Notes: a model not told the origin generated them from the letters alone. 34,787 nt of DNA from an uncultured bacterium (GCA_902803135.1 CADCPA010000270.1:1-34787), one strand, 5' to 3'; counted from the stretch's first letter, positions 4,025 through 25,886 are shown. Translations and numbers: made by a program.

Positions 4025-7000
4025 CTAGCGCGCTTCCGGAATAAGGCGCACCGGACCGATCAGGCCCGATTTGCGCAGCGCCGTGCCCTTGCCGCAGCAC
4101 GGCAGCGACGTCCAGGTCGGACGGTCCGCCACGTCGTTGTCGCCCACGAGGCGATTGACCCAGAGGTCGCACACCTCGACCTCGAGTTCATTGACGCCTT
4201 CCTTGACGAACTCGGTCACGTCGAGGCGGTACGGGGCAAAGCACACGCCGCCCGCCGCCTTGCCGTTGACCTTCACCTTCGCCGTCACCTGCACGTCGCC
4301 GAGGTCGAGCACGCGGCGCGCCGCCGGACCCTTGCACGTGAACGTGGTCGTGTAGACGATCTTGCCCGAATAGAACTTCACGGCCGGATCGGCGGACGTC
4401 GAAAGGTCGAAGAGCTGGACCGTCTTCACCGGCTTCGCGGGACCGCGATGGATCGGATCGCTTTCAAACGCGAGCGCCCAGGGCCCGGCGACTTCAAGCG
4501 GCGCACCCGCCGGCTTCGCCGTCGCGCCCGTGCGACCCGCGGCGTCCTTTGCGAACACCACGAACAGGCTGCCGTGCGGCGCAAACGAGAGGTTCACGAC
4601 CGTACGGCCGTTCTCGAAGTGCCACGTATCCGCCTCGCGGATCGCGCCCGTCGCCGCGTCCCAGATTTCCGGCACGCGGCCGGACACGCGGAACGACACG
4701 TCCACGGACGGCGCCGCGCGACCACCGAAACAGGCCACGAAGTAGAGCTCGGCGTTCGGCATCGTGCGGTGCGCATGGATGAGGTGCGCACGGCCGTCAT
4801 GCAGCAGATCCGTGCCGCAATTGCGCATTTTGAGCGCCTCGTCGAGGGAGAGGCCCCAGGCGATCGTACCCTTGCCGCGCGTCGCGAACTTGACGGTCTT
4901 GCCGTCCACATCGCCCCAGAGTCGGTCCGCAATCTCCTTCACGCGCGCATCGGCCTGCGGCTGCCCCGCCAGCGACGGCGAGCGAACCGGCTTCGGCCCC
5001 AGCACGAACGCGCCGGCATGGACGAGCTTCTCGATGCGCGCAAGCAGTTCGGGACGCATCGTCTCGAGTTTCGGCAGCACGAGCACTTCATACGCCGTGC
5101 CGTGCGGCAGCACGAGGCGGCCCCTCGCGTCCACACCGGCCGTCTCGCGCAACACTTCGCCGTTGATGTAGTCGAACTGACGGCCCCGCGGCACGCCCGG
5201 GTCCGTGACACCCGTCATCTTCGGCGCGTCTTCACCGATGAAGTAGGCGATGTCCGCCACGTTCAAGCCCTGCTGCAGCATGTAGCCCGCGCGCTTGAGA
5301 TAGCCGCTGAAGAGGTCGAAGTGCTCAAACCAGGTGTTCTTGCGGTTGAACTCGTTGCCGAACCAGGCGATGTTGCCCGGCACGCGTTCGTCGTGCTGGA
5401 GAATGTAGAGGTGGAGAATCGTCGCGTTGATGCCGTCCGCAAAGAAGCGGTCCGTACGAGACTTCAGATCCATCGGCGTACGTTCGAACGCGCGGCCGCC
5501 GCAGGTATTGGACTCCGCCCAGATCTGGCGCTTGCCGTAGATATGGCCGCAGCTCGACGCTGCACGGTTCTCGATGTCGCCAAGCGACCCTTCGCTCCAG
5601 AACTCGCCGGCAATGCCGTCGCTCTGGCCGCCGTACTGGAGGAACTCGCCCGGGAAACCCCAGTGTCCGTAGCACTCCAGCCAGGTGTTCAGACCGTGGT
5701 GGTTGCTCGCGGCACGCAGACCGCCCACATACGAGTAGGCCACTTCATCCGCCACGAACCGGCGCACGTCCCAGAGGAAACGGTCGGAATCGTCGCGGCT
5801 CGCCGTCGGCATGCCGAAGAAGGCCGGCAGGTACGGTGTGGGATCATAGCCGAACGCCGCCTTGAACCGCGCGGCGAAGTCGTCCGTGAAGTTCTGTCCG
5901 CCCATCTCGTAGCTGTCGAGCACCGCGTGCTTGATCGCCTTGCGGGGACCGGCCGGCGTGCGGGCGAGAATCTTGCCGAGATACGCGTCGAAATGCGCCG
6001 CCACGTGCGCACGGCTCATCTTGTCCACTTCGTAGCCCGTCGCCTCGGGGTTCGCCGGACTGTTCTTCGTGCCGGTCGCCGCCGTCGCGAAACGGTAGAC
6101 GAGCCAGCGGCCCTCGGGTACGTCCCAGTCGAGCGAACCGTCGCGCGCGACCTTGCCGTGCAGCACGACCGCCTTCGCGGGGTCGAGCGCCGTGCCTTCG
6201 GCGTTCGCGGGTTCGGCCGGCCACTGGTATTCATGCCAGTATGGCAGTGGCGACTCGAACATCTTCGCGAGCGTCTTTTCATAGGCCCGCGCGATGAGCG
6301 GGGCGCCGCAGACGGAGACGGTTGCAAACCGCGACTGGAAACCGCCCGCGGGGGCGATCGTCACGCGGTAGCGCGTCGCCGTCACCGGCGCGAAGGACGC
6401 GAGAACGGGCGCGTGCGGCGAGAAGCCGACGTTCGTCGCGTGGTTGGCGCGGCTGAACGGCATCTCGCACACCTTCTGCCAGGAATCCGGCGCCGTCTCG
6501 GCTTCGACCTTCACCGAACCGGCGATCGTGCCGTCGATGAACGCGAGCTCGACGCTCTGCGCCGTGAAGGGCTTGTCGGAAGCGAGATCGACGACGAGCG
6601 GCTGGCCGGCGCGCTGCAACAGCGAATCGTTGACGTCCTTCGCCTCGAGACGTTCCGTTGCCAGCGCGGGCGCAGGATAGGCGACCGCGAGGAGGTCCTG
6701 GAACTCGTCCGCCGGTACCGACTCGAACTTCGGCGCGGGCAGCTTGACGCCCTTCGCCGGACCCGTCACCGCGACGGAACTCGCGACCAGGCGGCGCATC
6801 GCCTGCTCGGGCTTCACCCACGGGCCGCCCGACTGGCTCCAGCCCGGCGAATTGAAGAGGCCGAGTTCGACGCCGATTTCGCTCGCCGTCTCGAAGGCTG
6901 TGGCCAGCGCCTTCTCCCATTCGGGCGAGAAGGTCTTGACCGTGCCCTTCGGACCGTCCTGCCCGCCGATGTCGCCGATGTAGGCGCGATCAATGCCGGC

Positions 7001-7252
7001 ACGCTTCATCGCGAGCAAGTCCTTGCGGACGCCCTCGCAGGTGATATTGCCGTTGATCCAATACCAGTAGCAGCCCGTCTGAACCTTCCCGAAGGGATTC
7101 TTGAAGTCCGCCGCCATCTCCTCATATGCGGGATTCGTCGGTTTCAAATTCGTTTCGCCCGGCATGTCGTGCGTGAATCTGCCCGTCGCCATTTCGGCTC
7201 CGGCCGCGCCGGCCAGCGCGGCCAACGCCAGCACACCCAATTGGTTCTTCAT
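4025..7252 (-). CDS. GH106-family alpha-L-rhamnosidase, exported
   Basis: This 1075-residue protein begins with a signal peptide (MKNQLGVLALAALAGAAGA, cleavage near 19-20). It then shows the GH106 opening: FKNPFGKVQTGCYWYWINGNI at about 50-70, followed by EGVRKDLLAMKRAGIDRAYI. GH106 enzymes remove terminal alpha-L-rhamnose from rhamnogalacturonans and other plant glycans. The last 160 residues (about 915-1075) look like the usual galactose-binding-type jelly roll, with GPWAL, YTTTF and VKVNGK. Length is typical for the family (about 900-1150). I did not assign the catalytic glutamates. A likely ribosome site AAGGA lies nine bases before the ATG. It follows the TIM-barrel isomerase gene after 80 bases with no clear promoter between, so the two may be co-transcribed. 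Family assignment is firm; exact substrate is inferred from the PL11, GH78 and GH97 genes nearby. Confidence 0.88.
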   Translation of the reverse strand: MKNQLGVLALAALAGAAGAEMATGRFTHDMPGETNLKPTNPAYEEMAADFKNPFGKVQTGCYWYWINGNITCEGVRKDLLAMKRAGIDRAYIGDIGGQDGPKGTVKTFSPEWEKALATAFETASEIGVELGLFNSPGWSQSGGPWVKPEQAMRRLVASSVAVTGPAKGVKLPAPKFESVPADEFQDLLAVAYPAPALATERLEAKDVNDSLLQRAGQPLVVDLASDKPFTAQSVELAFIDGTIAGSVKVEAETAPDSWQKVCEMPFSRANHATNVGFSPHAPVLASFAPVTATRYRVTIAPAGGFQSRFATVSVCGAPLIARAYEKTLAKMFESPLPYWHEYQWPAEPANAEGTALDPAKAVVLHGKVARDGSLDWDVPEGRWLVYRFATAATGTKNSPANPEATGYEVDKMSRAHVAAHFDAYLGKILARTPAGPRKAIKHAVLDSYEMGGQNFTDDFAARFKAAFGYDPTPYLPAFFGMPTASRDDSDRFLWDVRRFVADEVAYSYVGGLRAASNHHGLNTWLECYGHWGFPGEFLQYGGQSDGIAGEFWSEGSLGDIENRAASSCGHIYGKRQIWAESNTCGGRAFERTPMDLKSRTDRFFADGINATILHLYILQHDERVPGNIAWFGNEFNRKNTWFEHFDLFSGYLKRAGYMLQQGLNVADIAYFIGEDAPKMTGVTDPGVPRGRQFDYINGEVLRETAGVDARGRLVLPHGTAYEVLVLPKLETMRPELLARIEKLVHAGAFVLGPKPVRSPSLAGQPQADARVKEIADRLWGDVDGKTVKFATRGKGTIAWGLSLDEALKMRNCGTDLLHDGRAHLIHAHRTMPNAELYFVACFGGRAAPSVDVSFRVSGRVPEIWDAATGAIREADTWHFENGRTVVNLSFAPHGSLFVVFAKDAAGRTGATAKPAGAPLEVAGPWALAFESDPIHRGPAKPVKTVQLFDLSTSADPAVKFYSGKIVYTTTFTCKGPAARRVLDLGDVQVTAKVKVNGKAAGGVCFAPYRLDVTEFVKEGVNELEVEVCDLWVNRLVGDNDVADRPTWTSLPCCGKGTALRKSGLIGPVRLIPEAR

Positions 7253-12595: not shown

Positions 12596-15500
12596 TCACC
12601 GTACCTTGCCGGCCAGATCGAGCGGCACGATCTTGCCCGACACCGTCGTGTACGCGCCCGTCACGGCGCAGTACGCTTCGACCGCCACCATACCGGCCGC
12701 GTCGCGCACGAGATGCCAGTTCGGCTTGAGGAGGAGCGCAGCCTCTGCGGGGAGAATCAGCTCGTCGTCTTCCACCACGCGGAACATCTGCTCCTTCCCG
12801 TCGACGCGGCAGACGCCGCGCACCTCCTTCACCTTGTTCGGCACGGCGTCGCCAAAGAGTCCGTTGCTCGCATTCTCCACGAGAAGTCCGTCCTTCACGC
12901 GCGCCCGCAGCTTGTCCGCCACGTCGATGCAGATCGGCTTCGCGCCGTCCTCGGGGAACCAGCCCCATTCGGCCTTCACAATCTCCACTGTCTTCGCCCG
13001 CGGCGGCGGGTTCTTCGGGGCGACCGTGACGCTCAGCAGCGGATCCGGACGCGGTCCCGTCGGGGTCAGGCGCAATTCATAGGAACCCGATCCGTAGCGC
13101 CCCGCCGCCCCGGTTGTCGTGTAGCCCGTCGGGATTACGACATCCGCCGTCGCATTCGGCGGGATCGTAAACGACCATCTGACTGAACCGTCCGCCTGGC
13201 GCCGCCAGGCGCTGCGGATCATGCCGCGTGGCGAGTTGTGCGCGGCGGCAGCATGGTCAAGGGCTCCGAGAAAGCGCGGCGCGAGGAGGAAGCGACCGAA
13301 ACCGACCGCCGCCCTGTCCGTCGGCACCTGCGCGATAACGGCGTCCGCACCGCCGGCCGGGCGAATGCCCGCCGCGTACTGGTAGAGCCACGCGGAGAAG
13401 TCGCCGAACATGATGTGATTCCAAGACGAATTGCCGTAGAAGTCTTCCCAGAGCGTCGTACCGCCCCGCTTCAGCCAGTTGCCGAAGGACGGGAAGTCGT
13501 CCCGCGCGAGCAGTGCGAAGGCAACGTCTTCAAGTCCGTTCTCCGCCAAGGCGCGGAAGAGGTACTTGGAGCCGAGGATGCCGAAGTCGACGTGGCCGTC
13601 TGCACGGCAGATTGCTTCGAGCATCTTCACCACCGCGGCCGGGCGATCCGCCCGCGGCAAAAGTCCCTGGTGGAGTGCCGTGCTCTGCGACGTCTGCGTA
13701 CCCGTCGAGCAAGTTCCGTCCGGCTCCATGAATGCACGGCGGAACGCCGCGGCGACGCGGTCGCTTTCCGCCAACAGGGCGGCCGATTCGTCCGCCTTGC
13801 CGAGCACGGCCGCCGTCCGCGCGGCAATGCGCAGGTCGAGCGCATAGTAGCCCGTGCTCGTCACGCCGTTGAACGTCTCCGTCTTCACCGGCACCCAGTC
13901 ACCCAGTCCATAGGCAATCGTACCATCGGGCCGCTCGTGCGCCTTCATGAAAGCGAGATTGCGTCGCATCGCCGGATACGCGAGCGCCAGCGCCTTCACG
14001 TCGCCCTTGTAGAGGTAGAGATTCCACGGCAACACGAAGATCACGCTATCCCAAGCCGGCCCGCCACCGGCGCCCCAGCCCGAAGTCGGCACGATGTCGG
14101 GAATCTGTCCGTTGGGACGCTGCGCATCCACCAGGTCGTTGATCCACTTCTCGTAGCCCGCGACGTTATCGAAGTTGTACATCGAAAGTTCGCTCGCAAG
14201 CTGGGCATCACCCGTCCAGCCGTTCTTCTCGCGGTGCGGACAGTCCGTCGGGAAGCCGTTGGCGAAGTTGCCGCGGTAGGAAGACTTCGCCGCCGCCTGC
14301 AGACGGTTGATCAAGTCGTTCGAGCAGCTGAAGTCGCCCACGTCGGGGAAATCTGTGCAGACGACCTGCCCCCGCACGTCGTCCGGTGCCGGCGGACGCG
14401 CGAGACCGATCACCTCCACGTAGCGGTAGCCGTTATAGGTGAATCGCGGCTCGTAGACGTCGTCGTCCGAGCCCGAGCAGACGAAGCGGTCCGTCTGGAA
14501 CCAGCCGCCCGGCAAGGCGAGGAAGCTCTGTCCGTTGCCCGTGCAGCCGTCGCAGAGACGCACCGTCCCGTCGTCGTTGAGCATGTCGCCAGATCGAATG
14601 GTCAGCACGTCGCCCTTCTGCTGTCCGCGCACCTGCATCCGCATCCAGCCCGCGACGCCACGGCCGAAGTCGATGAGGCAATGTCCGTTGGCGAGCGTCT
14701 TGATTCCCACGGGCGCGAGCGACTCGCGCACGACGGACCCCGGCTGCGACTCGGCGCACAGCTTGCCGTTCGGCCCCGCCACGACGCGCACGGGAAGATC
14801 GAGCGCGGCCTTTGCCGCCGCGGGGGAGATCGTCTCGTTCTCGCGCAGGTCGTCCCACAGAATCGGGCTCCCCACCTGCCGCCACGATCCATCCGTCGCC
14901 ACAACCTCGCGCGCCCCGTCGGCATAGACGAGCTCGAGCTGGGCGATCATCCGCGGCGTTTGGCGCCACGGCGCACTGTCGAAGTTCCACGCCGCGATGC
15001 CGCGCACGTCATAGTAGCCGTGACCGACGAGCACGTCGAGCTGATGTTCGCCCGCCTTCGCAAAACGGTCGGTCACGTCATAGGAAGAATAGAGGACGCG
15101 CTTGTCGTACTGCGTCGGCGCCGGGTCGAGCACCTTGTTGCCGACGCGCGTACCGTCGAGGCTGGCCTCGTAGTAGCCGACGCCCGTGATGTGGAGCACG
15201 GCGGACTTCACGCCGGCCCGTGTTGCGAACCGCTTGCGGAACGCGGGCGACACCCGCTCGATGCCGCGCTTGACCTCGCCCCAGGGCCGACAGCCGCACG
15301 GACCAACCTCGCGCACGCCCGCCCACGCCTCGGGCTGCGCGGCGCTCGCCTGCCACCGCGCATCGGAGACGAGCGGCGCCTTGCCATCCGCCGTCACGAG
15401 GGCGAGGAGGAGTCCGGTCGGACCTGACTTCGCGTTGTACACGCGTACAGTGATTTCATTGCGGCCCGCCTTGAGATGTCCGGCGACATCCGCAAAGCGC

Positions 15501-16294
15501 AACCACCGCCAGTCGGCGACGCCGCGGTCGCCCACCGTACCGGTCGCGGGGCGTCCGTTGATCCAGATCATCACATGGTCGTCCGCCGTGTAGGCCAGAA
15601 TCGCACGCTTGGCAAGATGCGCCCGGTCGTGAATCGGGCGCCACCCGTTGAAGCCTGTCTGATGGACGACCGCACTGTACTCAGGCGTCAGGACGGATGC
15701 GTCGACGTCGAACGCCGCCTTGTAGACCGTGTCGCCGGGCGGGCACTGTTCGATGTCGTCCGGACCCTGCCTCGGCCGGATCCACTTCGCCCCATGGAGA
15801 TCGAATGTCTCGATCGTCGCCTCGTTGGCGGCAATCCACTGCGCCGACCAGTCGCCCGGGTTCATTATGCCTGTGAGCCACGTGGCAGGCGCGCTCCAGG
15901 GCGACGGTTCATCCCCTTCGTTCGTCCACGTACGAACCGTCCACCAGTACCGCTGCGACGAAACGAGCGCCTTGCCGGCATAGACGATGTCAAGCTGCTC
16001 GGCCGACGCGACGCGTCCGCTTGCCCAGAAATCGGCCGCGCCGTCCACCGCCAGCTTCGCCGGATCCGTCGCCACGCGAATCTCATAGCCGGTCTGCACG
16101 ACATCCCTGGCCTCCCGCGCGGCAGCAACCTTCCAGGAAAATCGCGGCTGCGCCGCATCGAGACCCTCGGGATTCACCCGACGCTCCACCTGCAGGTCGC
16201 ACGGCGCCAGCGCAGCCAGCAGACCCAACGGCAACACGCCCGCCGCAAACGCGGCAAACAGGGCAAGACCGCCCAGGAATGTTCTTCTCTTCAT
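12596..16294 (-). CDS. GH78-family alpha-L-rhamnosidase with DUF3395-like C-terminal tail
   Basis: This 1232-residue exported enzyme releases alpha-linked L-rhamnose. A signal (KRRTFLGGLALFAAFAAG, with a twin-arginine-like start) is followed by an Ig-like domain with RFSWKV and RYWWTVRTWT (about 30-145), then jelly-roll domains. The (alpha/alpha)6 catalytic barrel carries TDCPHREKNGWTGD, with E689 as the likely general acid. The Bac_rhamnosid_C sandwich follows, with AVGFGRFLLAPRF and YGSGSYELR. The last 125 residues (1108-1232) are extra: AEWGW, DVADKLRARVKDGLL, NGLFGDAVPNKVK and DELILP resemble the DUF3395 domain first named from DnaJ homologues. GH78 proteins usually have about 700-1100 residues, so this one is long. 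It follows the GH97 gene after 78 bases. Confidence 0.88.
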   Translation of the reverse strand: MKRRTFLGGLALFAAFAAGVLPLGLLAALAPCDLQVERRVNPEGLDAAQPRFSWKVAAAREARDVVQTGYEIRVATDPAKLAVDGAADFWASGRVASAEQLDIVYAGKALVSSQRYWWTVRTWTNEGDEPSPWSAPATWLTGIMNPGDWSAQWIAANEATIETFDLHGAKWIRPRQGPDDIEQCPPGDTVYKAAFDVDASVLTPEYSAVVHQTGFNGWRPIHDRAHLAKRAILAYTADDHVMIWINGRPATGTVGDRGVADWRWLRFADVAGHLKAGRNEITVRVYNAKSGPTGLLLALVTADGKAPLVSDARWQASAAQPEAWAGVREVGPCGCRPWGEVKRGIERVSPAFRKRFATRAGVKSAVLHITGVGYYEASLDGTRVGNKVLDPAPTQYDKRVLYSSYDVTDRFAKAGEHQLDVLVGHGYYDVRGIAAWNFDSAPWRQTPRMIAQLELVYADGAREVVATDGSWRQVGSPILWDDLRENETISPAAAKAALDLPVRVVAGPNGKLCAESQPGSVVRESLAPVGIKTLANGHCLIDFGRGVAGWMRMQVRGQQKGDVLTIRSGDMLNDDGTVRLCDGCTGNGQSFLALPGGWFQTDRFVCSGSDDDVYEPRFTYNGYRYVEVIGLARPPAPDDVRGQVVCTDFPDVGDFSCSNDLINRLQAAAKSSYRGNFANGFPTDCPHREKNGWTGDAQLASELSMYNFDNVAGYEKWINDLVDAQRPNGQIPDIVPTSGWGAGGGPAWDSVIFVLPWNLYLYKGDVKALALAYPAMRRNLAFMKAHERPDGTIAYGLGDWVPVKTETFNGVTSTGYYALDLRIAARTAAVLGKADESAALLAESDRVAAAFRRAFMEPDGTCSTGTQTSQSTALHQGLLPRADRPAAVVKMLEAICRADGHVDFGILGSKYLFRALAENGLEDVAFALLARDDFPSFGNWLKRGGTTLWEDFYGNSSWNHIMFGDFSAWLYQYAAGIRPAGGADAVIAQVPTDRAAVGFGRFLLAPRFLGALDHAAAAHNSPRGMIRSAWRRQADGSVRWSFTIPPNATADVVIPTGYTTTGAAGRYGSGSYELRLTPTGPRPDPLLSVTVAPKNPPPRAKTVEIVKAEWGWFPEDGAKPICIDVADKLRARVKDGLLVENASNGLFGDAVPNKVKEVRGVCRVDGKEQMFRVVEDDELILPAEAALLLKPNWHLVRDAAGMVAVEAYCAVTGAYTTVSGKIVPLDLAGKVR

Positions 16295-16372: not shown

Positions 16373-18868
16373 TTACTTTGTCGCGTGGGCGGTCCAGCCG
16401 CCGCCCGTGCGCATGCGGATGCGCAGCGGCTTCGAGACGTCGTGCTTGACCGTGCGGTGGATGTAGTGCTCGGCATTGAAGACGACGTCGAGGTCGTCCT
16501 CGAACACGTCAAACGTCCACACGCCCGAGCCGAGGCAGGAGACATCGAGATCGATCATACGCTCATCCCAATCGGTCACGCCGCCGATCCACCAGTCCCT
16601 CCCCTTGCGGCGCGCAACGACGGCGTACTTGCCGACTTCGCCCGCGAGACCGACCGTGTCGTCCCACGTCGTCGGCACGGCCGCGAGGAACTTCGTCGAT
16701 TCGGCATTGCGGCGGTAGAGGCTCGGGCTGTCGCAGAGCATCTGCAGCGGACCGTCGAAGAGCGTGAAGAGCGCGAGCTGGTGCGCGCGCGTGCCCATCG
16801 AGCCCGGACGCGACCAGTGCATGCGCTCGAGCATGCGCGAACGGTTGAGCATGGCGCCCGGCGTGTAGTCGAGCGGACCCGCCACCATGCGCGTGAACGG
16901 AATCTGGCAATCGTTACGCGGAAAGTCGCCGTTCGGACCGCCCTTGAGCTGTTCGAGTCCGTACACGCCTTCATAGTTCACGATGTTCGGCAGCATGCGG
17001 CTCATGCCCGTGGGTTTGTGCATGCCATGGTAGTCGATGAGAAGCTTGTACTTCGCCGCGATGCGTGCAGTCTCTTCGAGGTACACCTCGACCTCCGCAT
17101 CGTCGCGCTCCATGAAGTCGATCTTGAGGCCCTTGACGCCCATCTTCGCGAAGCGGGCGCAGAGTTCCTCCTGGCGGTTCCAGAGCTTGCTCCACGCCGC
17201 CCAGAGGATGATGCCCACGTTCCTGACCTTGCCGTAGGCGATGAGCTCCTCGAGGTTGAGGTCGGGGTTGATCTCGTCGAGGTTCAGATGGCGGCTCCAG
17301 CCCTCGTCCATGATGATGTAGGGAATGCCGTTTTCGGACGCGAAGTCGATGTAGTTCCTGTACGTCGGCATGTTGATGCCCGGCTTGAAGTCGACATCCG
17401 TCAGACGCCAATCGTTCCACCAGTCCCACGCGACGAGGCCGGGCTTGATCCACGACGTGTCCTTCAGTTCGTTTGGCGTGGAGAGCGCCCACACGAGGTC
17501 GTTCGCCATGAGGTCGGCCGCCTTCCCCGCCATCGCGAAGACGCGCCACGGAAACGTACGTGCGCCCGTTCCCTTCACCAGGAAATCTTCGCGCTCGCGC
17601 ACCGGACGGTAGCGGCCTTCTTCGCGCGTGCCCTTCGCCGTCGGCGCACGGGCCATCCAGGCGGAGAGCACCTCGGGGTCGTCGTCGTAGCGTCCGAACG
17701 ACCAGCCCGAGTAGTTGCGCAGATCGGCTTCGGTCACGCAGAGCGTGCCGTTCGCATAGGAAGCCGTCAGCGGCAGCAGCACGAGGCGGCCGAAGTTGCC
17801 CGGCACGTCCTTCACCGTGCCGTTGCGGTAGATCGTCTCCCAGCCGTTCTGGTGGGGATCGGACGGCGGACGGCCACCCGTGAGACCGTAGCAGATCGGC
17901 GTAGCCGCGGGAAACGTGATGCTCGCCGTTTCGTGCACGACGGTCAGCTCCTGTTCCGGGGCCACGGTGAAGCGGTATGCGACACCGTCGTTGCGCGCGA
18001 CCACGTCGAGCGCCCAGCCTTTGAAGGCGAGGACGGCCTTGTTGCCCTCGTTCGAAACCTTTGCCTTCTTGTAGACGGGCGCATCGATCTCGCCCTTGAG
18101 CGCCTGGCGCGTCGCCTTGTAGCCGAGACCCGCGCCGCCGAGAAGACCGTACTCGCGCGTTTCCAGCGCGAGCGGCGTCGGCTTCACCCACGTCACGCCG
18201 TCGCGCAGCACTTCGTACGCGAGAACCGGCTCCGTGCCGATGCGGATGACATTGTGTCCGTCCGGCGACGTCACCGCGGTGACCTGTCCGCCCAACTTGC
18301 CGTTGAAGTTCCGGGGCATGAACACGCCCTTCTTCTCGACCTTGAACGGATTGACCGTCGCGATCTTCGCGCCGTCCGCGACCACGATGTAGGCGTCGCA
18401 CCAGTCCGCATGGTCCGCATTGATGCCGTCGCCGCCGTCGTCCACAATCAGCGTAAGACGCTTCGCCCCCTTCAGCGGCACCTCGATCGTCTTCGCCTTG
18501 TCGCCGCGCCGGATAACGCCCGTGGCGGCGACGGTCTTGCCATCCGCCTGCACCTTGAACGAAACCGTGCCGCGCATGTGGTTGTCGGGTTCTTCGTCGT
18601 CCACGCCCACCGCAGCCACGAACTTCACGGCCTGGCCGCCGAGATCGATGTCCATGCGGCTCACGGCATGCACGCCGATGCCGTTCTGATACGGCTGCCC
18701 GCCGACCGAAAGCGTGTGGTCCTCACACGAACGACGTGCACGGACCTGTCCGAACCCCGTGATCACGGGCCCCAGGTCGAGCGAATCGATCCACACCTTC
18801 GTTTCGGCGCCAACCGAAAGCGACGCCGCGAGCGCCAACACGCCCACCGTCAAATGACATCTTTTCAT
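16373..18868 (-). CDS. NPCBM-GH97 glycoside hydrolase, probably alpha-galactosidase type
   Basis: This 831-residue exported protein has a signal peptide (MKRCHLTVGVLALAASLSVGA), an NPCBM carbohydrate-binding domain (about 24-165, with GQPYQNGIGVHAVSRMDIDL and the WCDAYIVVADG strand) and a GH97 domain (about 180-830). GH97 hallmarks are AWDWWNDWRL (480-489), PYIIMDEGW (516-524), LKIDFMERDD (581-590) and NYEGVYGLE (631-639). In GH97, retaining alpha-galactosidases have an Asp nucleophile in this DFM position while inverting alpha-glucosidases lack it, so D584 suggests the retaining group; E633 is a candidate acid/base. These subgroup calls are inference. No Shine-Dalgarno sequence precedes the ATG; the promoter abuts it. 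Neighbours are the PL11 fusion upstream and GH78 downstream. Confidence 0.9.
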   Translation of the reverse strand: MKRCHLTVGVLALAASLSVGAETKVWIDSLDLGPVITGFGQVRARRSCEDHTLSVGGQPYQNGIGVHAVSRMDIDLGGQAVKFVAAVGVDDEEPDNHMRGTVSFKVQADGKTVAATGVIRRGDKAKTIEVPLKGAKRLTLIVDDGGDGINADHADWCDAYIVVADGAKIATVNPFKVEKKGVFMPRNFNGKLGGQVTAVTSPDGHNVIRIGTEPVLAYEVLRDGVTWVKPTPLALETREYGLLGGAGLGYKATRQALKGEIDAPVYKKAKVSNEGNKAVLAFKGWALDVVARNDGVAYRFTVAPEQELTVVHETASITFPAATPICYGLTGGRPPSDPHQNGWETIYRNGTVKDVPGNFGRLVLLPLTASYANGTLCVTEADLRNYSGWSFGRYDDDPEVLSAWMARAPTAKGTREEGRYRPVREREDFLVKGTGARTFPWRVFAMAGKAADLMANDLVWALSTPNELKDTSWIKPGLVAWDWWNDWRLTDVDFKPGINMPTYRNYIDFASENGIPYIIMDEGWSRHLNLDEINPDLNLEELIAYGKVRNVGIILWAAWSKLWNRQEELCARFAKMGVKGLKIDFMERDDAEVEVYLEETARIAAKYKLLIDYHGMHKPTGMSRMLPNIVNYEGVYGLEQLKGGPNGDFPRNDCQIPFTRMVAGPLDYTPGAMLNRSRMLERMHWSRPGSMGTRAHQLALFTLFDGPLQMLCDSPSLYRRNAESTKFLAAVPTTWDDTVGLAGEVGKYAVVARRKGRDWWIGGVTDWDERMIDLDVSCLGSGVWTFDVFEDDLDVVFNAEHYIHRTVKHDVSKPLRIRMRTGGGWTAHATK

Positions 18869-18930: not shown

Positions 18931-21900
18931 CTAGAGCACAAACGGCTGTCGAACGATCAGCGGCGCTGCGCCCTCCCGCTTCAACTCGGCCGCCATGTCG
19001 TAACGCCCCTTGGGGTTCGGCGGACGGCGGATCTTCAGCGTCTTCGTCCAGAGTCCGCCCGGCGGCAGATCGATCTCAACCGAGCCCAGCTTCACGGACC
19101 ACTCGGGCGGCATCTGCGTGATCGCGAGCGTGCCCCGCAGCGGCCGGTCGAGCGGTGCCACGACGTCGAGGACAAGTTCGCGCGCGTTTTCACTCAACCG
19201 CACGGAGACGTTCGGATCGCGGGCACTCGGCACGTAGGTGAGAATCGGCTGCTGGTCGTAGCCGCTCGTCCACATTGTGATGCGCGACCGGTACGAGCTG
19301 TCGCACATCAGCGACAGACGGCGGTCCATGGCGGGGATGTCCGTCGTGTAGATGCGGATCTCGCCCTTCCCGCCGGCGATGAACTCCTCACGCCAGTCGC
19401 CGAAGAGATCGGCGACGAGCATCGGATTTGGCAGCCGCGCCGTCACGCGCGCCCCTTCGTGGTCCTTCAGTCCGCTGCGGAACAGTTCACGCTGGAGGTC
19501 GGCATCCCAGTAGGCGTTGCGCACGCCCTGCCCGTAGCCGTAGACGCAGTTCGTATGGGAACTCAGCAACGTGCCATTCGCGGCGAAGAACCAGCGGTTG
19601 TCGCTCTGCGGATGCGTCTTCTCCTTCGTGCTGCCGGACTGATCGACTTCCTGTCCGTAGATTTCAAGCCCGGCATGGCGCGGGTCGATGTCCGCGCAAA
19701 TGCCGCAGCTGTGCACGTGGTGCGTCGGCTCCTTCAGCTGCCAGATGTCTTCACCCGTCACGGGATCCGTCAAAAGCAGACCGCCGCCCTGACGTTGCCG
19801 CGTCTCATAGATGAAAGCGAGTTCCATGCCCGGACGTTCCGGATCGATGTCCCCATAGTAGTGCGCGTCGGAGTGGCCGCGCTCGTTGCACCAGAGCACC
19901 GTGCCGTCATGGTCGAGCGTGAGGGAGCCGATCAGCACCTCGTCGCAACCGTCGCCGTCCACATCTTCACAGAGGCACGCATGGTCGCCCTGCCCCTTGA
20001 AGCGTTGCGGCATGAACTCGTTGTTGAACCGCCAGACGCGTTCCAGCGCGGCGTCCTGGCCCTCCGGCAATCCATCCTTCGCGACAAGACGGTAGGCGTC
20101 GACGATCATCTTGCCGTACGTGCCACGTTCCATGATGACGCAGGGCGGTTGACCGCCTCGACGTGCGAGGGCCAGCTGGTTGCGCGAATTGTAGTGGTTG
20201 TAGTCCTCGACGGGATCCGGCGATGCACGCGGAATCCACGGCACCTGCGCGCGGATGCGCCCCGTCAATCCGTCAAACACGGTGAGGTGTTCCGGACCGT
20301 CGTTCACGCGCCCGTCGGCGTCGCGGTAGTCGGGCGACAACGGCGCAGTCTTCGCAATCACCTCCGCCTTGCCGTCGCCGTCGAGGTCCGCGACAAGATA
20401 CGGCGCATACCACGTCCCCATCTCGATGTTCCAGCCCAGATCCTTCCGCCACAGCATCTTGCCCGATGAATCGTACGCCGTGAGCTTGTAGGTGTCCGTC
20501 GCCCGTTTCCACACGAGGTCCCACGGATCGGTGCCGCCCGCCGGGGTCCGCACGACATAATCGTACAGGCCGTCGCCGTCAAGATCGCCCACGCCGACGG
20601 CGGATACCGTCTCATTCGTGTCCGCCAGCGGCAGGCGAATGAAAGGTGCCGCCGGATCCACCTCGCAACGGACGGGTGTAAAGTGCGCGCCGTCGAGGGA
20701 ATACTCGGCCGTAAGGTCCGTGTAGCCGTCGAGGAAGAAGTCGCTCGTCTGCACAATCGGCGCGGCGTTGAGTTTCTCCACCTTCCCGTTCGCACGACGC
20801 CAGAGGGTGAAGCCCAAATCCGTCGCATCCGACGGCAGCATCCGCCAGCTCACCTGCGTACCCTGCGCGTTGACGCACGCCACCAGCGCACGATTGTTCG
20901 TGAAGCAAGGTGCGTCAGCCGTCTCACGACCGCCCGGGCGTTTGTCTGCATGCACGGCGAGCTTGTATGCAAGCTGCAGCGTCTCGCCCTTCTTGAGCGT
21001 GAGCGGCGCCGTATGAACCGGGCACGGATTGATCATCCGCTTGTCCGGCCACAGATAGAACTTGCCGGTGTCCGGTCCGACAAGCTGGGTGAAGGTCACA
21101 CCCTCGCCGCACTCCCGATCGGTGAAATCGAGGAACTTCGTCTCGACACCCGTACAAGCCGCCGGCGTCGTGCCGCCCGCAAACCCGCGCACGTCGAGCG
21201 CCTTCGCCGTCGTCGTGTCGAGTCGCAGCGTCATGCCCGCATAGCCGCCGCCCCACTTGCCGGTCTTCGGGTCGCCGTGCGGCGGTGTGCGGTCAAGCGT
21301 CACGTCCGCCAACGCCGTGAACGTATGGCGCGTCGTGATGATGTAGCCGCCGTTCGGATCCGGCGGATCGACGGTGATGCGACGCGATTCCGCGAGCACG
21401 GGTTTCTCGCCGCGCGGACCGTACTCGAGTTCCGCCTGGACGACGCAGTCGAGTCCGTCGAGGCGGACGTCCTTCTTCACCAGCCGCGTCGCGCCTGCCG
21501 GCTCGGCACCCGTGCGCTTTTCGTCGGCCGGCTCCCAGTAGTTGACGCCGTTGATGAACTTCCAGGAGAACCAGTAGCCGAGATGCCACACATGGTCTTT
21601 CGGACGTAGATCCGTCAGCGGACGTCCCGACGGCAGGGCGAGCGGATGGAAGAAGGGACGTCCCTCAGGATTGTCCAGCTCGAGATTCCACAGCGTCTTC
21701 CCGTCGCGGAGCATTCTCACGCCCGTCGCCGTGCGCGTCAGCTGTGAGCGGCGGAAGATGGAGATGGCTTCGTCCGTACGCCGGCACTTCGGTTCACGTG
21801 TAATCAGCTCGTCGAGAATCGCGCCGATCGTGTGGCACGGGTACTTGTGGCGCTCACGCGTCACCGCCGCCTTCAGCAGGTTGAATCTGCCTTGCGGATC

Positions 21901-22833
21901 CGGCACCCATTCAGTTGTGCCGTCGTCCGTCAGCGTGAATGCCCCGCGTTCGGATTCAAAGAACCGCGACGGCCCGTAAACCGCCGCCAGCACCGTCACC
22001 TCGTCCCAGGAGCAGCGTCCGCCGACCTCCTTCTCCTCGGTCTTGCCCGCAAGGACGTCCGCCCGGCGCGGCAGCGCCCACGCGAAGATGTCGTGCACGG
22101 GATTTCTGTAGCCGTAGCTGCGCTCCGCAACCGTCCGGCCCGAATAGATGTCGTTGCCGAGCTCGCACGGCGTCACGACGACGTAGGTCGGCCATTTCGC
22201 GAAGGCGATCTTCGCGGATTCCGCATCATGCAGCACGTTGTACGTGCGTCCCTTCGCCTCCTGTCCCGCCATGACATGCCAGGTCTTGACCTTCTTCGCC
22301 ACGAGATCGCGTCCCGGGAGCGGCGAATACTGGTCGCCCGGCGTCTCCAGAAGACGGCGGATGTTCGTGAGAAAGCCCACGCTGCAGAAGACGACGCTCT
22401 TGTCCGGCGCGGACGCCAACGCCTTGCGGTAGACCTCGTTCGCGTCGGGCGCGTCGTTGGAATTCGGATGCTTGACCCAGTCGGCGTACTCGCGCGCCAG
22501 CCGCGTGTACTTCTGATGCCAGCGGCGCGTCGGATCGCCGCCGGGCACGCCGACGACGCCGAGGTTCTTCGCGCACCCCACGGGAATGTCGGGGCGCCCG
22601 TAGTAGGCGTTTACGATTTCGACCGCGGCGACAGACTGGTTGTCCCGCGTGCAGGAGGCCATCGCGAGGATCTCGCACCTGCCTTCGTCCGCCAGCGCAT
22701 GCAGCGTCGCGAGCGCGCCGACATCGTCGTAGTCCTCGACCATGTCGGTATCGAAGACGACCTTCGGCACGGCGGCGGCGGCCGCCAGCGCCGCGCCCGT
22801 GGCAACCATGAACAGCCAGTTCTTCAGATTCAC
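18931..22833 (-). CDS. Fusion of nucleoside-hydrolase-like, PmoA-like (DUF6807) and PL11 rhamnogalacturonan lyase domains
   Basis: This 1300-residue exported protein joins three enzyme-type modules in one uninterrupted frame. Residues about 23-350 resemble inosine-uridine nucleoside hydrolases: KVVFDTDMVEDYDDVGAL carries the Asp cluster. Residues about 365-635 resemble the DUF6807/'methane oxygenase PmoA' family: NPEGRPFFHPLALP, DHVWHLGYWFSWKFINGVNY. Despite the name, that family is not methane monooxygenase. Residues about 645-1300 form a PL11 rhamnogalacturonan lyase propeller with VSWRML, DLDGDGLYDY and DLDGDGKAEVI calcium loops, HYNSRNQLA and GDHACLCEDVDGDG. PL11 cuts the rhamnogalacturonan I backbone by beta-elimination. 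I chose GTG at 22833 because GAGGA lies five bases before it and the signal peptide MNLKNWLFMVATGAALAAAAA then starts cleanly; an ATG frame extends to 22866. Confidence 0.87.
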   Translation of the reverse strand: MNLKNWLFMVATGAALAAAAAVPKVVFDTDMVEDYDDVGALATLHALADEGRCEILAMASCTRDNQSVAAVEIVNAYYGRPDIPVGCAKNLGVVGVPGGDPTRRWHQKYTRLAREYADWVKHPNSNDAPDANEVYRKALASAPDKSVVFCSVGFLTNIRRLLETPGDQYSPLPGRDLVAKKVKTWHVMAGQEAKGRTYNVLHDAESAKIAFAKWPTYVVVTPCELGNDIYSGRTVAERSYGYRNPVHDIFAWALPRRADVLAGKTEEKEVGGRCSWDEVTVLAAVYGPSRFFESERGAFTLTDDGTTEWVPDPQGRFNLLKAAVTRERHKYPCHTIGAILDELITREPKCRRTDEAISIFRRSQLTRTATGVRMLRDGKTLWNLELDNPEGRPFFHPLALPSGRPLTDLRPKDHVWHLGYWFSWKFINGVNYWEPADEKRTGAEPAGATRLVKKDVRLDGLDCVVQAELEYGPRGEKPVLAESRRITVDPPDPNGGYIITTRHTFTALADVTLDRTPPHGDPKTGKWGGGYAGMTLRLDTTTAKALDVRGFAGGTTPAACTGVETKFLDFTDRECGEGVTFTQLVGPDTGKFYLWPDKRMINPCPVHTAPLTLKKGETLQLAYKLAVHADKRPGGRETADAPCFTNNRALVACVNAQGTQVSWRMLPSDATDLGFTLWRRANGKVEKLNAAPIVQTSDFFLDGYTDLTAEYSLDGAHFTPVRCEVDPAAPFIRLPLADTNETVSAVGVGDLDGDGLYDYVVRTPAGGTDPWDLVWKRATDTYKLTAYDSSGKMLWRKDLGWNIEMGTWYAPYLVADLDGDGKAEVIAKTAPLSPDYRDADGRVNDGPEHLTVFDGLTGRIRAQVPWIPRASPDPVEDYNHYNSRNQLALARRGGQPPCVIMERGTYGKMIVDAYRLVAKDGLPEGQDAALERVWRFNNEFMPQRFKGQGDHACLCEDVDGDGCDEVLIGSLTLDHDGTVLWCNERGHSDAHYYGDIDPERPGMELAFIYETRQRQGGGLLLTDPVTGEDIWQLKEPTHHVHSCGICADIDPRHAGLEIYGQEVDQSGSTKEKTHPQSDNRWFFAANGTLLSSHTNCVYGYGQGVRNAYWDADLQRELFRSGLKDHEGARVTARLPNPMLVADLFGDWREEFIAGGKGEIRIYTTDIPAMDRRLSLMCDSSYRSRITMWTSGYDQQPILTYVPSARDPNVSVRLSENARELVLDVVAPLDRPLRGTLAITQMPPEWSVKLGSVEIDLPPGGLWTKTLKIRRPPNPKGRYDMAAELKREGAAPLIVRQPFVL

Positions 22834-22899: not shown

Positions 22900-25731
22900 T
22901 CAGTCGACGAGTTCGAAAGTCGAATCATAGCGGAAGTTGCCGACCTTCGGCGTCGTGACCTTCGCCCGCCCCGATATGCGCAGGTACGAGCCTGCTTCCG
23001 TGAAGGATTCGAACGACACGCCATCCGCGCGGTCGTTGCCCGGACGCTTGAACCAGGTCGCGCGCGCCGCGAAGTCGGCGGAGCCGTCGTTCTCGACCAC
23101 ATTCACAAAACCATCCGGCATCTGCACGAGATAGGCGCCCGGACGGCTCATGGACCGGATCGAGACGCCCTTCGCATCCGCCAGCCCCGGTTCAAACTCC
23201 CAGTACGCGTCGCCCATCACCTTCGCATTGCAATCGGAAACCACGTGGACCTCCTCGCGTTTCGCCTTTCGGCCCTGGGCATCCACGAACTCGACCCGTT
23301 CGTCGCGCGTCACGAGGAACTTGACCGGACCATGAATCCACCGGATGCGCTGGGCGGGATTCGAGACCTTCAGTCGGGTCACGGCCGACGGACGGGCGTT
23401 CTTCGCATACACGCCCAGCTTGCCGACCGGCAGCTGCGCGTCGCGCAGCGTCACGCAGACGCCGCCGACCGTCAGGCCGAGCGTCGAACCGAACGCCGTG
23501 ACCTTGCACGGCACCGCGCCCTTCACGGCAATCTTCTTCTCCGCCGACGGGGGCCTGTCCCCGAATATCGGACCAAATCCGCGAATCAACGCCGTCCCGT
23601 CGCCGCGCAGGCCGAGATAGTAGCCGCCTTCGTCGGAAACGCGCACCGCCACGCCCGCTTCGCCGTCTGCCTGTTCCGGTACGGACACCGTCGCCGTGAT
23701 CACCGCCGCCGCGACATTCGGCGCCGAGCCGTCCGCCGTTTCCGCAAAGACGACGGACTCCTTCCCGCCACCCGTCGTCGAGCGCTGCTTCGGCGGCAAC
23801 GCCAGACCGGCGTTGGCGGAAACGACCGACTTCAAGTTCTTCGACGCCTTGATGATCCGGTCGTGCGCGGCCTTCATCATCTTGGGATCGAACTTGAGCA
23901 CCTTGCGGTCGTAGGTGTAGATGCCGTTCGTTTCGCCCTCCACGTCGGTGATCTGCGTGTACATCGACGCGCTCAACCCCGGGAAGTAGAGCAGATTGTA
24001 GATTTCATCCTGCATCTCGCGGTAGCGGCGCCCCAGCATGTCGACATCCTTGTTCGCCTCGCCGTAGGCCCAGCCGCCGCGCTTAAACCACGTGTGGTCC
24101 TTGACGTTGAGGCCGGCGCCGCCGTATTCGCCAAGCGCCTGGATCGTCGGAGGAACCTCGGCGCCGCCCACCAGCACGGGGTACGGACTGGATGACGGTC
24201 CGGGATAGATGTGGATGTCGTAGACGTCGCCCGACGCATGTTCGTTGGGCAGGCCCGTCGAGTCGTTGACGAGGCGGGTCGGATCGTAGGCGCTCAGCCA
24301 GTCGGAAAGGCGCTTCACCTCGGGACGCTCGTAGATCGCCCAGCCCTCGTTGAAGAGAATCCAGCAGACCACCGACGGCGCGGAGATGTGCGTATCGACC
24401 ATCGCCTTGAGCTCGCGCTCGAAAGCCGCCTTCTCCGCGGCGTTCGGGCGGAACCCGATGTCGCGGTCCTGCCCCCACTCGCGACGCTGTTCGTGCGTAT
24501 GCATGCAGGGCATGTCCTGCCACACGAGCATGCCGATCTTGTCGCACCAGTAGAACCAGCGGCGCGGCTCGACCTTGATGTGCTTGCGGATGAGATTGAA
24601 GCCGAGCTCCTTATGCGCGACGATGTCGCTCTTCAGCGCCTCGTCCGTCGGCGCGCGCAGATTGCCGTCCGGCCAATAGCCCTGGTCGAGCGTACCGAGC
24701 TGGAAGACGAACTCGCCGTTGATCGTGGGACGCCACACGCCGTCGATCTGCTTCAGGCCCACGTCGCGCAGACCGAAATAGCTCGTGATCCTGTCGACAA
24801 TCCGGCCGCGATCCGACAGGGTCAGCTCGAGATCGTAGAGGAACGGCGTGTCGGGCGTCCACGGCTTCGCATCCGGAATCGCCAGGCGAAACTCGCGGTT
24901 GACCACGCCATTGCCCGTCGCCACCGGCTTCCCGCCGTCCCGCGCCACTGCCGTCACGGTCTGGAACTTCTCCGGCGCTTCGACGAGGATGCCCACCCAC
25001 CCCTCGGCGAAATGCGGCGTGAGCTTGAGACGCGTCGCCGCGGCTTCGTCCACCGGTTCAAGCCACACGGTCTGCCAAATGCCGCTGTTCGGCGTGTACC
25101 AATAGCCCTCGGGCTTGTTCCGCTGCTTGCCGACAGGCTGCGTGCCGTTGTCCGTCGGATCGTAGACGGAGACGATCAGCTCGTTCTCGCCGTCCTTCAG
25201 CGCCTTCGTCACGTCGAACCAGAAGGGGTCATAGCCGCCGTCGTGCCGGCCGACGCTCTTGCCGTTGACGTAGGCTTCGCACCGCCAGTCGACAGCCTCG
25301 AAGTTCAGGCGCACATGGCGGCCCTTCCAGCTCTTCGGCAGGGCAAAGGTGCGGCGATACTTCATGTACTCCATCCGCTCCATGATGCCCGACAGCGCGC
25401 TCTCGACGGGATACGGCACGAGAATCTCGCGCGGCAGCTTACGTCCGGGCTCCACGGCCTTGAAGACGGATTCGTCCATGCCCTTCCAGTCGCAGGTCGG
25501 TACGCGGTTCGTCACGCCCGTCGTCCCGTCGAACTCCCAGACGCCGTTGAGGTTCAGCCATTCCGCGCGCACCAGCTGCGGACGCGGATACTCCGGCAGC
25601 ACGTTCTCCGCCGTCACGTCGTCCGCCCACTTGGTCATGATCGGCGCAGACTTCTTCTCCCACGCCAATCCGTTCACGACCGTCGCCGCCGCCAACGCCG
25701 CGGCCATCCATCCACCCATCTTCATCTTCAT
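22900..25731 (-). CDS. GH2 glycoside hydrolase with LamG-like and CBM42-like C-terminal domains
   Basis: This 943-residue exported protein starts with MKMKMGGWMAAALAAATVVNG. The GH2 sugar-binding sandwich (about 45-225) has LNLNGVWEF and VDWRCEAYVNGKSVGRHDGG. An Ig-like sandwich and a TIM barrel (about 320-620) follow. E462 in LFNEGW is the likely acid/base and E535 in ALGEYGG the likely nucleophile. GH2 includes beta-galactosidases, beta-glucuronidases and arabinosidases; I cannot choose. Residues about 655-790 look like a concanavalin-type sandwich. Residues about 845-943 have two AbfB-type repeats, GVSIRSMSRPGAYLV and GVSFESFTEAGSYLR, with matching ATWFKRPG and STFELVD, as in CBM42 arabinofuranose binders. 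ATG 25731 has AAAGGGG upstream; an extension to 25884 is spurious. Confidence 0.88.
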   Translation of the reverse strand: MKMKMGGWMAAALAAATVVNGLAWEKKSAPIMTKWADDVTAENVLPEYPRPQLVRAEWLNLNGVWEFDGTTGVTNRVPTCDWKGMDESVFKAVEPGRKLPREILVPYPVESALSGIMERMEYMKYRRTFALPKSWKGRHVRLNFEAVDWRCEAYVNGKSVGRHDGGYDPFWFDVTKALKDGENELIVSVYDPTDNGTQPVGKQRNKPEGYWYTPNSGIWQTVWLEPVDEAAATRLKLTPHFAEGWVGILVEAPEKFQTVTAVARDGGKPVATGNGVVNREFRLAIPDAKPWTPDTPFLYDLELTLSDRGRIVDRITSYFGLRDVGLKQIDGVWRPTINGEFVFQLGTLDQGYWPDGNLRAPTDEALKSDIVAHKELGFNLIRKHIKVEPRRWFYWCDKIGMLVWQDMPCMHTHEQRREWGQDRDIGFRPNAAEKAAFERELKAMVDTHISAPSVVCWILFNEGWAIYERPEVKRLSDWLSAYDPTRLVNDSTGLPNEHASGDVYDIHIYPGPSSSPYPVLVGGAEVPPTIQALGEYGGAGLNVKDHTWFKRGGWAYGEANKDVDMLGRRYREMQDEIYNLLYFPGLSASMYTQITDVEGETNGIYTYDRKVLKFDPKMMKAAHDRIIKASKNLKSVVSANAGLALPPKQRSTTGGGKESVVFAETADGSAPNVAAAVITATVSVPEQADGEAGVAVRVSDEGGYYLGLRGDGTALIRGFGPIFGDRPPSAEKKIAVKGAVPCKVTAFGSTLGLTVGGVCVTLRDAQLPVGKLGVYAKNARPSAVTRLKVSNPAQRIRWIHGPVKFLVTRDERVEFVDAQGRKAKREEVHVVSDCNAKVMGDAYWEFEPGLADAKGVSIRSMSRPGAYLVQMPDGFVNVVENDGSADFAARATWFKRPGNDRADGVSFESFTEAGSYLRISGRAKVTTPKVGNFRYDSTFELVD

Positions 25732-25748
25732 TCCTATCCCCTTTCGAC

Positions 25749-25780
25749 ACGGATTATATTTCGATTCCAAACGGATTATA
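25749..25780 (-). repeat. Direct repeat TATAATCCGT upstream of the GH2 gene
   Basis: Two identical ten-base copies of TATAATCCGT lie at 25771-25780 and 25749-25758 on the minus strand, 22 bases apart, close to two helical turns. Both contain a perfect -10 hexamer. They could be tandem promoters or an operator. Confidence 0.6.
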
Positions 25781-25804
25781 CCATCTCCGCCCCACCCCGC
25801 GCAA
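25775..25804 (-). promoter_or_regulatory. Promoter for the GH2 gene
   Basis: On the minus strand TTGCGC (25799-25804), an 18-base spacer and TATAAT (25775-25780) lie just after the rubrerythrin terminator and before the GH2 gene. A second perfect TATAAT (25753-25758) nearer the gene lacks a good -35. The downstream PL11 fusion, 66 bases after GH2 with no evident promoter, may share this transcript. Confidence 0.5.
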
Positions 25805-25823
25805 GCCCGCGCGCCCGGAACAG

Positions 25824-25855
25824 AAAGCTCCGGCGGACGAATCCGCCGGAGCTTT
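25824..25855 (-). terminator. Strong hairpin terminator after rubrerythrin
   Basis: The arms AAAGCTCCGGCGGA (25824-25837) and TCCGCCGGAGCTTT (25842-25855) pair perfectly over 14 bases. Read on the minus strand the four-base loop is TTCG, a very stable tetraloop, and the stem ends in TTT. It starts 31 bases after the rubrerythrin stop and just before the GH2 promoter. The U-tract is short (TTTCTGTT). Confidence 0.75.
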
Positions 25856-25886
25856 GATCCAACAGTTTCTGCAAACCGCGCCAAAC

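Follow-up and report, generated by a model that had tools for sequence, protein, structure and literature searches.

Three enzyme-like modules joined in one secreted protein of a rumen bacterium

A three-module protein and its gene neighborhood

Three enzyme-like parts that are usually separate proteins are joined in one secreted protein of a rumen bacterium. The gene lies in the window, the whole stretch of 34,787 nucleotides analyzed here, and reads on the minus strand from position 22833 to 18931 as a single open reading frame of 1300 residues. It has a GTG start with a GAGGAA-type ribosome-binding site just 5' of it, while the plus strand of the same interval is interrupted by stops. GC content is even along the whole gene, and a promoter and terminator scan returned nothing beyond chance.

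Pfam searches with the protein, labeled P0001 in our comparisons, identified IU_nuc_hydro at residues 25 to 291 (2.5e-10), DUF6807 (formerly "PmoA") at residues 372 to 631 (3e-36), RGI_lyase at residues 647 to 712 (1.6e-7), and RGL11_C at residues 745 to 1200 (1.4e-75). All of these families exceeded their curated cutoffs; the nucleoside hydrolase (NH)-like module scored 40.9 bits against a cutoff of 34.2. The sole PDB sequence matches of the protein were PL11 crystal structures, at residues 645 to 1200 (~1e-64). A preliminary description of this DNA had reported an unbroken 1300-codon frame and three recognizable modules behind a signal peptide, all of which we found, the signal-peptide-like N terminus by direct inspection of the sequence. 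The predicted models had a pLDDT of 86 for residues 1 to 642 and a pLDDT of 91 (pTM, 0.92) for residues 637 to 1300. The latter model includes an extra C-terminal β-sandwich of about 100 residues, overlooked in the preliminary description; residues 1201 to 1300 had no Pfam match.

TABLE 1 Features of the fusion gene and its neighbors in the window
Feature	Coordinates	Strand	Evidence
Complete CDS, 1300 aa, three-module fusion, GTG start	18931..22833	-	Frame, Pfam, orthologues
Signal-peptide-like N terminus, residues 1-21, MNLKNWLFMVATGAALAAAAA	22771..22833	-	Sequence inspected directly
NH-like module, residues 22-351	21781..22770	-	Pfam, fold (Z 28), conservation
DUF6807 (PF14100, formerly PmoA) module, residues 372-631	20941..21720	-	Pfam, conservation
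PL11-fold module, residues 647-1200, beta-sheet domain and eight-bladed propeller	19234..20895	-	Pfam, PDB matches, predicted model
C-terminal beta-sandwich, residues 1201-1300	18934..19233	-	Predicted model
GH2 + AbfB (CBM42-type) gene, upstream neighbor, 66 bases off	22900..25884	-	
NPCBM + GH97 gene, downstream neighbor, 62 bases off	16373..18868	-	
GH78-type alpha-L-rhamnosidase, next gene downstream of NPCBM-GH97	12596..16294	-	
GH106 alpha-L-rhamnosidase, further downstream	4025..7252	-	

The GH2-AbfB, GH97, GH78, and GH106 neighbors suit a pectic glycan that contains rhamnose and galactose. Elsewhere, the surroundings of the fusion are not conserved and often are not glycan loci, and a conserved neighborhood was rejected as a guide to the substrate because the flanking genes differ between genomes (RmlD, Wzy, GH42, SMC, ILVD). 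We infer the substrate of the fusion protein from its neighbors and fusion partners only. Also in the window, at 26520 to 34730 on the minus strand, is a 2736-residue open reading frame in which a CotH kinase domain and six lamin-tail domains were matched. Elsewhere in this genome, on a different contig (L157:2825-10000), a similar protein of 2392 residues is encoded next to a standalone NH gene.

The fusion is shared by related genomes and is under purifying selection

The preliminary description had recommended a search for the same domain order in other genomes, and we found this arrangement in seven other Kiritimatiellae assemblies, at about 60 to 70% identity. Five of them (G014, G053, G004, G023, and G034) encode all three modules, identically ordered, in single open frames at 62 to 69% identity; in G016 the fusion is cut by the contig end, and in G001 there is a frameshift within the PL11 part. 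The fusion-bearing relatives are Kiritimatiellae or Verrucomicrobia assemblies, several of them from rumen or from goat, sheep, or horse gut. A sample of 388 genomes from the whole phylum contained the junction between the NH and DUF6807 modules only in this fusion family.

Purifying selection acts on all three modules, with dN/dS values against P0001 of ~0.1 to 0.35 for each (Nei-Gojobori), although synonymous sites are near saturation. Values for the C-terminal extension are higher (0.34 to 0.62 by the same method, among the pairs computed), and it is conserved less than the other modules. The source assembly is fragmented (348 contigs), which could raise the suspicion of an assembly or frame artifact, but identical junctions recur in independent assemblies at 60 to 70% identity, GC is uniform, and dN/dS is well under 1. 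Because seven relatives share the arrangement and selection has acted on all three modules, an assembly join is ruled out, and we regard the chance of any such artifact as negligible.

Close relatives have not always kept all of the modules. A sister lineage (L014/L066 and L016/L067) retains only ~115 residues of the NH part, with no Asp motif left; this relic is still in frame and similar in both genomes. These relic-bearing fusions lie at L066:9599-12898 and L067:107-3461, and the L067 frame is also split. In L017 (L058), the NH and PL11 modules are present and DUF6807 is missing. The NH-eroded and DUF6807-less relatives all fall inside a single 12-row fusion clade in the tree, and therefore the simplest history is one fusion event with later loss of modules. 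Since the NH part is eroded or DUF6807 is absent in such close relatives, the modules are separable, can be gained or lost independently, and are not obligately coupled.

A divergent PL11-fold module

The predicted model of the third module aligns with YesW and YesX at Z 36, with an rmsd of 2.3 to 2.5 Å over 520 to 531 residues. In the alignment with YesW, P0001 keeps the Ca2+ ligands as H951, H987, D989, and E1010 (His363, His399, Asp401, and Glu422 of YesW) and the stacking Tyr as Y1192. The Arg452 position is C1043, the Asn-Gly-Thr-Lys (NGTK) block with the catalytic Lys535 is missing, and the Asn152 loop is deleted. In characterized PL11 enzymes, one Arg and one Lys stabilize the uronate carboxylate, one Tyr stacks on the sugar, and Ca2+ is bound by His, His, Asp, and Glu (PMC8787155).

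The same pattern defines a larger group. The NGTK block is absent from, and the Ca2+ ligands are kept in, 23 of 23 divergent copies, and the Arg is absent from 21 of them (L028 and L030 have it); of the other PL11 sequences, 21 of 25 have both R452 and K535, and C221, this genome's second PL11 gene, is among those 21. Phylum-wide sampling added 15 rows, one of them L032 repeated, and these likewise lack the catalytic Arg and NGTK residues. Divergent copies are split off by a fully supported branch in a tree of 64 rows (SH-aLRT, 100), PL11 bit scores across the phylum form two clear groups, and the divergent clade is spread over many Verrucomicrobiota families. The loss of both the catalytic Arg and the NGTK block is seen, too, in PL11 proteins of Pedobacter and Rufibacter (L077:10001-11722 and L079:10001-11677), which lie outside the Verrucomicrobiota clade.

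Eleven residues are invariant in the divergent copies first aligned with YesW, before the phylum-wide rows were added, and are absent from ordinary PL11: N885, Q886, Y992, Q1013, H1039, H1041, H1074, R1080, W1081, D1170, and R1172. The HVH motif at 1039 to 1041 varies in some of the wider-phylum rows (HVD, HIH, or HIN). Judged from these alignments, the module seems to have a rebuilt, not a decayed, active site. Because the known cutting residues are lost and a different conserved set is present, it probably does another job than its namesake rhamnogalacturonan lyase.

It could be argued that the module is instead a noncatalytic glycan-binding propeller that anchors NH and DUF6807, with any catalysis elsewhere in the protein, as the Ca2+ site stays although the NGTK block is gone and Arg452 is gone in most copies. 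We consider this unlikely: the many invariant His, Arg, Asn, Gln, and Trp residues of the clade exceed the needs of a binding scaffold, and many members carry the PL11-like module without NH or DUF6807.

The preliminary description had called the third module a PL11 lyase and had proposed that the protein may be a processive depolymerizing machine. The family assignment, the YesW fold, and the Ca2+ site hold; ordinary rhamnogalacturonan lyase activity cannot be assumed, because the NGTK block and Arg452 are gone and the clade has invariant residues of its own. A true lyase that passes its products to NH and DUF6807 would fit the RGL11_C match (1.4e-75), the YesW/YesX fold, and the pectin-type neighbor genes. 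However, the catalytic block is absent, close relatives have lost NH or DUF6807 while retaining the rest, and the same genome encodes another PL11 protein in which the canonical Arg and NGTK residues are intact. The proposal of a processive machine is unsupported, and we think the true-lyase reading as a whole very improbable.

The NH-like module and its fusion partners

Over residues 22 to 351, the predicted model matches nucleoside hydrolases at Z 28. A PDB search with a single NH relative gave no match, and NH profiles gave only weak RihA matches. The module keeps the Ca2+-site motif (D28-T-D30-M-V-E-D-Y-D36-D37) along with T156, N199, and W276-D277, residues whose roles are taken from IUnH, and P0001 retains 84 of the 90 positions conserved in 17 other NH modules. 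At the position of the ribose-binding Glu (before Phe/Tyr-Asn), P0001 has Thr197 where the other triple-fusion orthologues keep Glu; among the aligned orthologues, only P0001 shows E197T and D222P. In the whole NH subfamily, the base-side His before the C-terminal Asp is replaced by Trp, which some known purine NHs also have at this position. Because E197 is absent here and the NH part is eroded in the sister lineage, the NH module of P0001 may be inert.

Members of the subfamily also occur as standalone, secreted-looking proteins and as fusions with GH106 (L045, L046, and L047), a GxDLY/SGNH esterase (L050 and L051), AXE1 (L043), GH43 (L044, with a GH28 fragment upstream), a sugar permease (L040 and L041), and, less certainly, GH2 (L048). 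In another Verrucomicrobiota genome (G347), three NH-type genes form an operon-like run (L160:4848-13708) with an RbsC-like permease, an RbsB-like binding protein, a LacI regulator, and ThuA. A literature search on NH modules in polysaccharide loci returned nothing informative.

Related genes in an RbsB/RbsC-like transporter run, the NH fold, and the retained Ca2+-site Asp, T156, N199, and D277 would all be expected if the module were a secreted nucleosidase or ribosidase recovering ribose from gut nucleosides. We nevertheless regard this as improbable, as NH modules are repeatedly joined to carbohydrate-degrading modules, the ribose-binding Glu position is Thr in P0001, and the expected His is Trp subfamily-wide, the last point being tempered by the purine NHs. 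The preliminary description had inferred that the NH-like and DUF6807 modules act on a glycan fragment or other glycoside released by the lyase and not in nucleoside salvage. The repeated fusions to carbohydrate-degrading or sugar partners, together with the sugar ABC transporter run of G347, indicate that a role in glycan breakdown is probable.

The DUF6807 module

In the preliminary description, the second module was labeled "PmoA-like," an obsolete misnomer for DUF6807. PF14100 is now listed by Pfam as a family of unknown function, and the module is modeled as a soluble, largely β domain; neither fits a PmoA copper membrane oxygenase subunit. PF14100 has been used as a marker of methane-oxidizing PmoA in a metatranscriptome study (PMC10291797), and its PF14100 hits may have been misread as methane oxidation.

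The invariant residues of the module include His, Trp, and Glu residues, among them H396, H414, H417, and H503, and the HP and DHxWH motifs are invariant. Elsewhere, DUF6807 is joined to ThuA (C249 of the same genome, L053, L054, and L056) or to LacZ (L055). LacZ and GAL10-mutarotase chains at Foldseek ranks 41 to 50, with a query model larger than the DUF6807 module, hint at a galactose-mutarotase-like supersandwich fold for the module. A comparison of the DUF6807 profile with the LacZ small-chain domain profile was negative, and literature searches for DUF6807 or the PmoA family name gave nothing informative on function.

Discussion

The reading we prefer, to which we give an even chance, is that P0001 is a secreted, multimodular enzyme of herbivore-gut Kiritimatiellae that acts on a pectic glycan with rhamnose and galactose through a rebuilt PL11-fold site and an NH glycosidase. 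Encoded in a run of GH2-AbfB, fusion, GH97, and GH78 genes, the protein would be exported and would break down this glycan. The PL11-fold module would still bind glycan at its Ca2+ site. Its active site would be rebuilt from HVH 1039-1041, N885-Q886, H1074, R1080-W1081, and D1170-R1172, and it would therefore cleave a different bond, or carry out other chemistry, than YesW. The NH module would be a Ca2+-dependent glycosidase that grips a sugar via a cis-diol and releases this sugar from a glycan or glycoside, perhaps weakened in P0001 by E197T and D222P. DUF6807 may be a sugar-binding or sugar-converting module, which is the weakest step of this scheme. All three modules would act on a single substrate in parallel and nonprocessively.

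Automatic annotation would describe this protein as a rhamnogalacturonan lyase, a nucleosidase, and a part of a methane oxygenase, names of which two are either probably or certainly wrong. Two candidate activities emerge, one in a PL11-fold clade that lacks the PL11 catalytic block and one in an NH-fold module that repeatedly joins pectin-degrading enzymes; both belong to gut bacteria that subsist on plant fiber and are mostly uncultured. A literature search found no activity for the divergent PL11 clade, the NH subfamily, or DUF6807, and we know of none in any of their members. It is possible, and we propose it tentatively as something short of probable, that the divergent PL11-fold copies form a new CAZyme family, spread throughout the Verrucomicrobiota and with its own catalysis, and that, in addition, the NH-like module, which recurs with rhamnosidases, esterases, and this clade, is a new class of Ca2+-dependent glycosidase whose substrates are plant glycans and not nucleosides.

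Comparison with known systems

YesW (2z8r, endo) and YesX (2zuy, exo) of Bacillus subtilis share their fold with P0001 over the whole PL11 module. The Ca2+ ligands and the stacking Tyr are common to YesW and P0001; P0001 differs in the missing NGTK block and catalytic Lys, in Cys for Arg452, in the deleted Asn152 loop, and in its own invariant residues. P0001 also has an insertion at 1060 to 1081, overlapping a site at which YesX too is extended relative to YesW. In other Kiritimatiellae, proteins that combine CBM4_9 with a PL11-like module (L020 to L030) belong to the same divergent clade but lack NH and DUF6807; the one that was Pfam scanned, L025, has a carbohydrate-binding domain instead.

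With IUnH (PF01156; 5tsq/2mas) and RihA (3g5i), the NH module shares the fold (Z 27 to 28), the Ca2+-site Asp residues, and the LTN and Tyr-Asn motifs, at 15 to 18% identity and with a two-residue insertion in the Asp motif. Unlike them, it has Trp for the base-side His, is secreted and fused, and in P0001 carries E197T. The ThuA-DUF6807 protein C249 of the same genome has the same full-length domain with the invariant HP and DHxWH motifs, joined to ThuA, whereas in P0001 the domain is fused to PL11 and NH.
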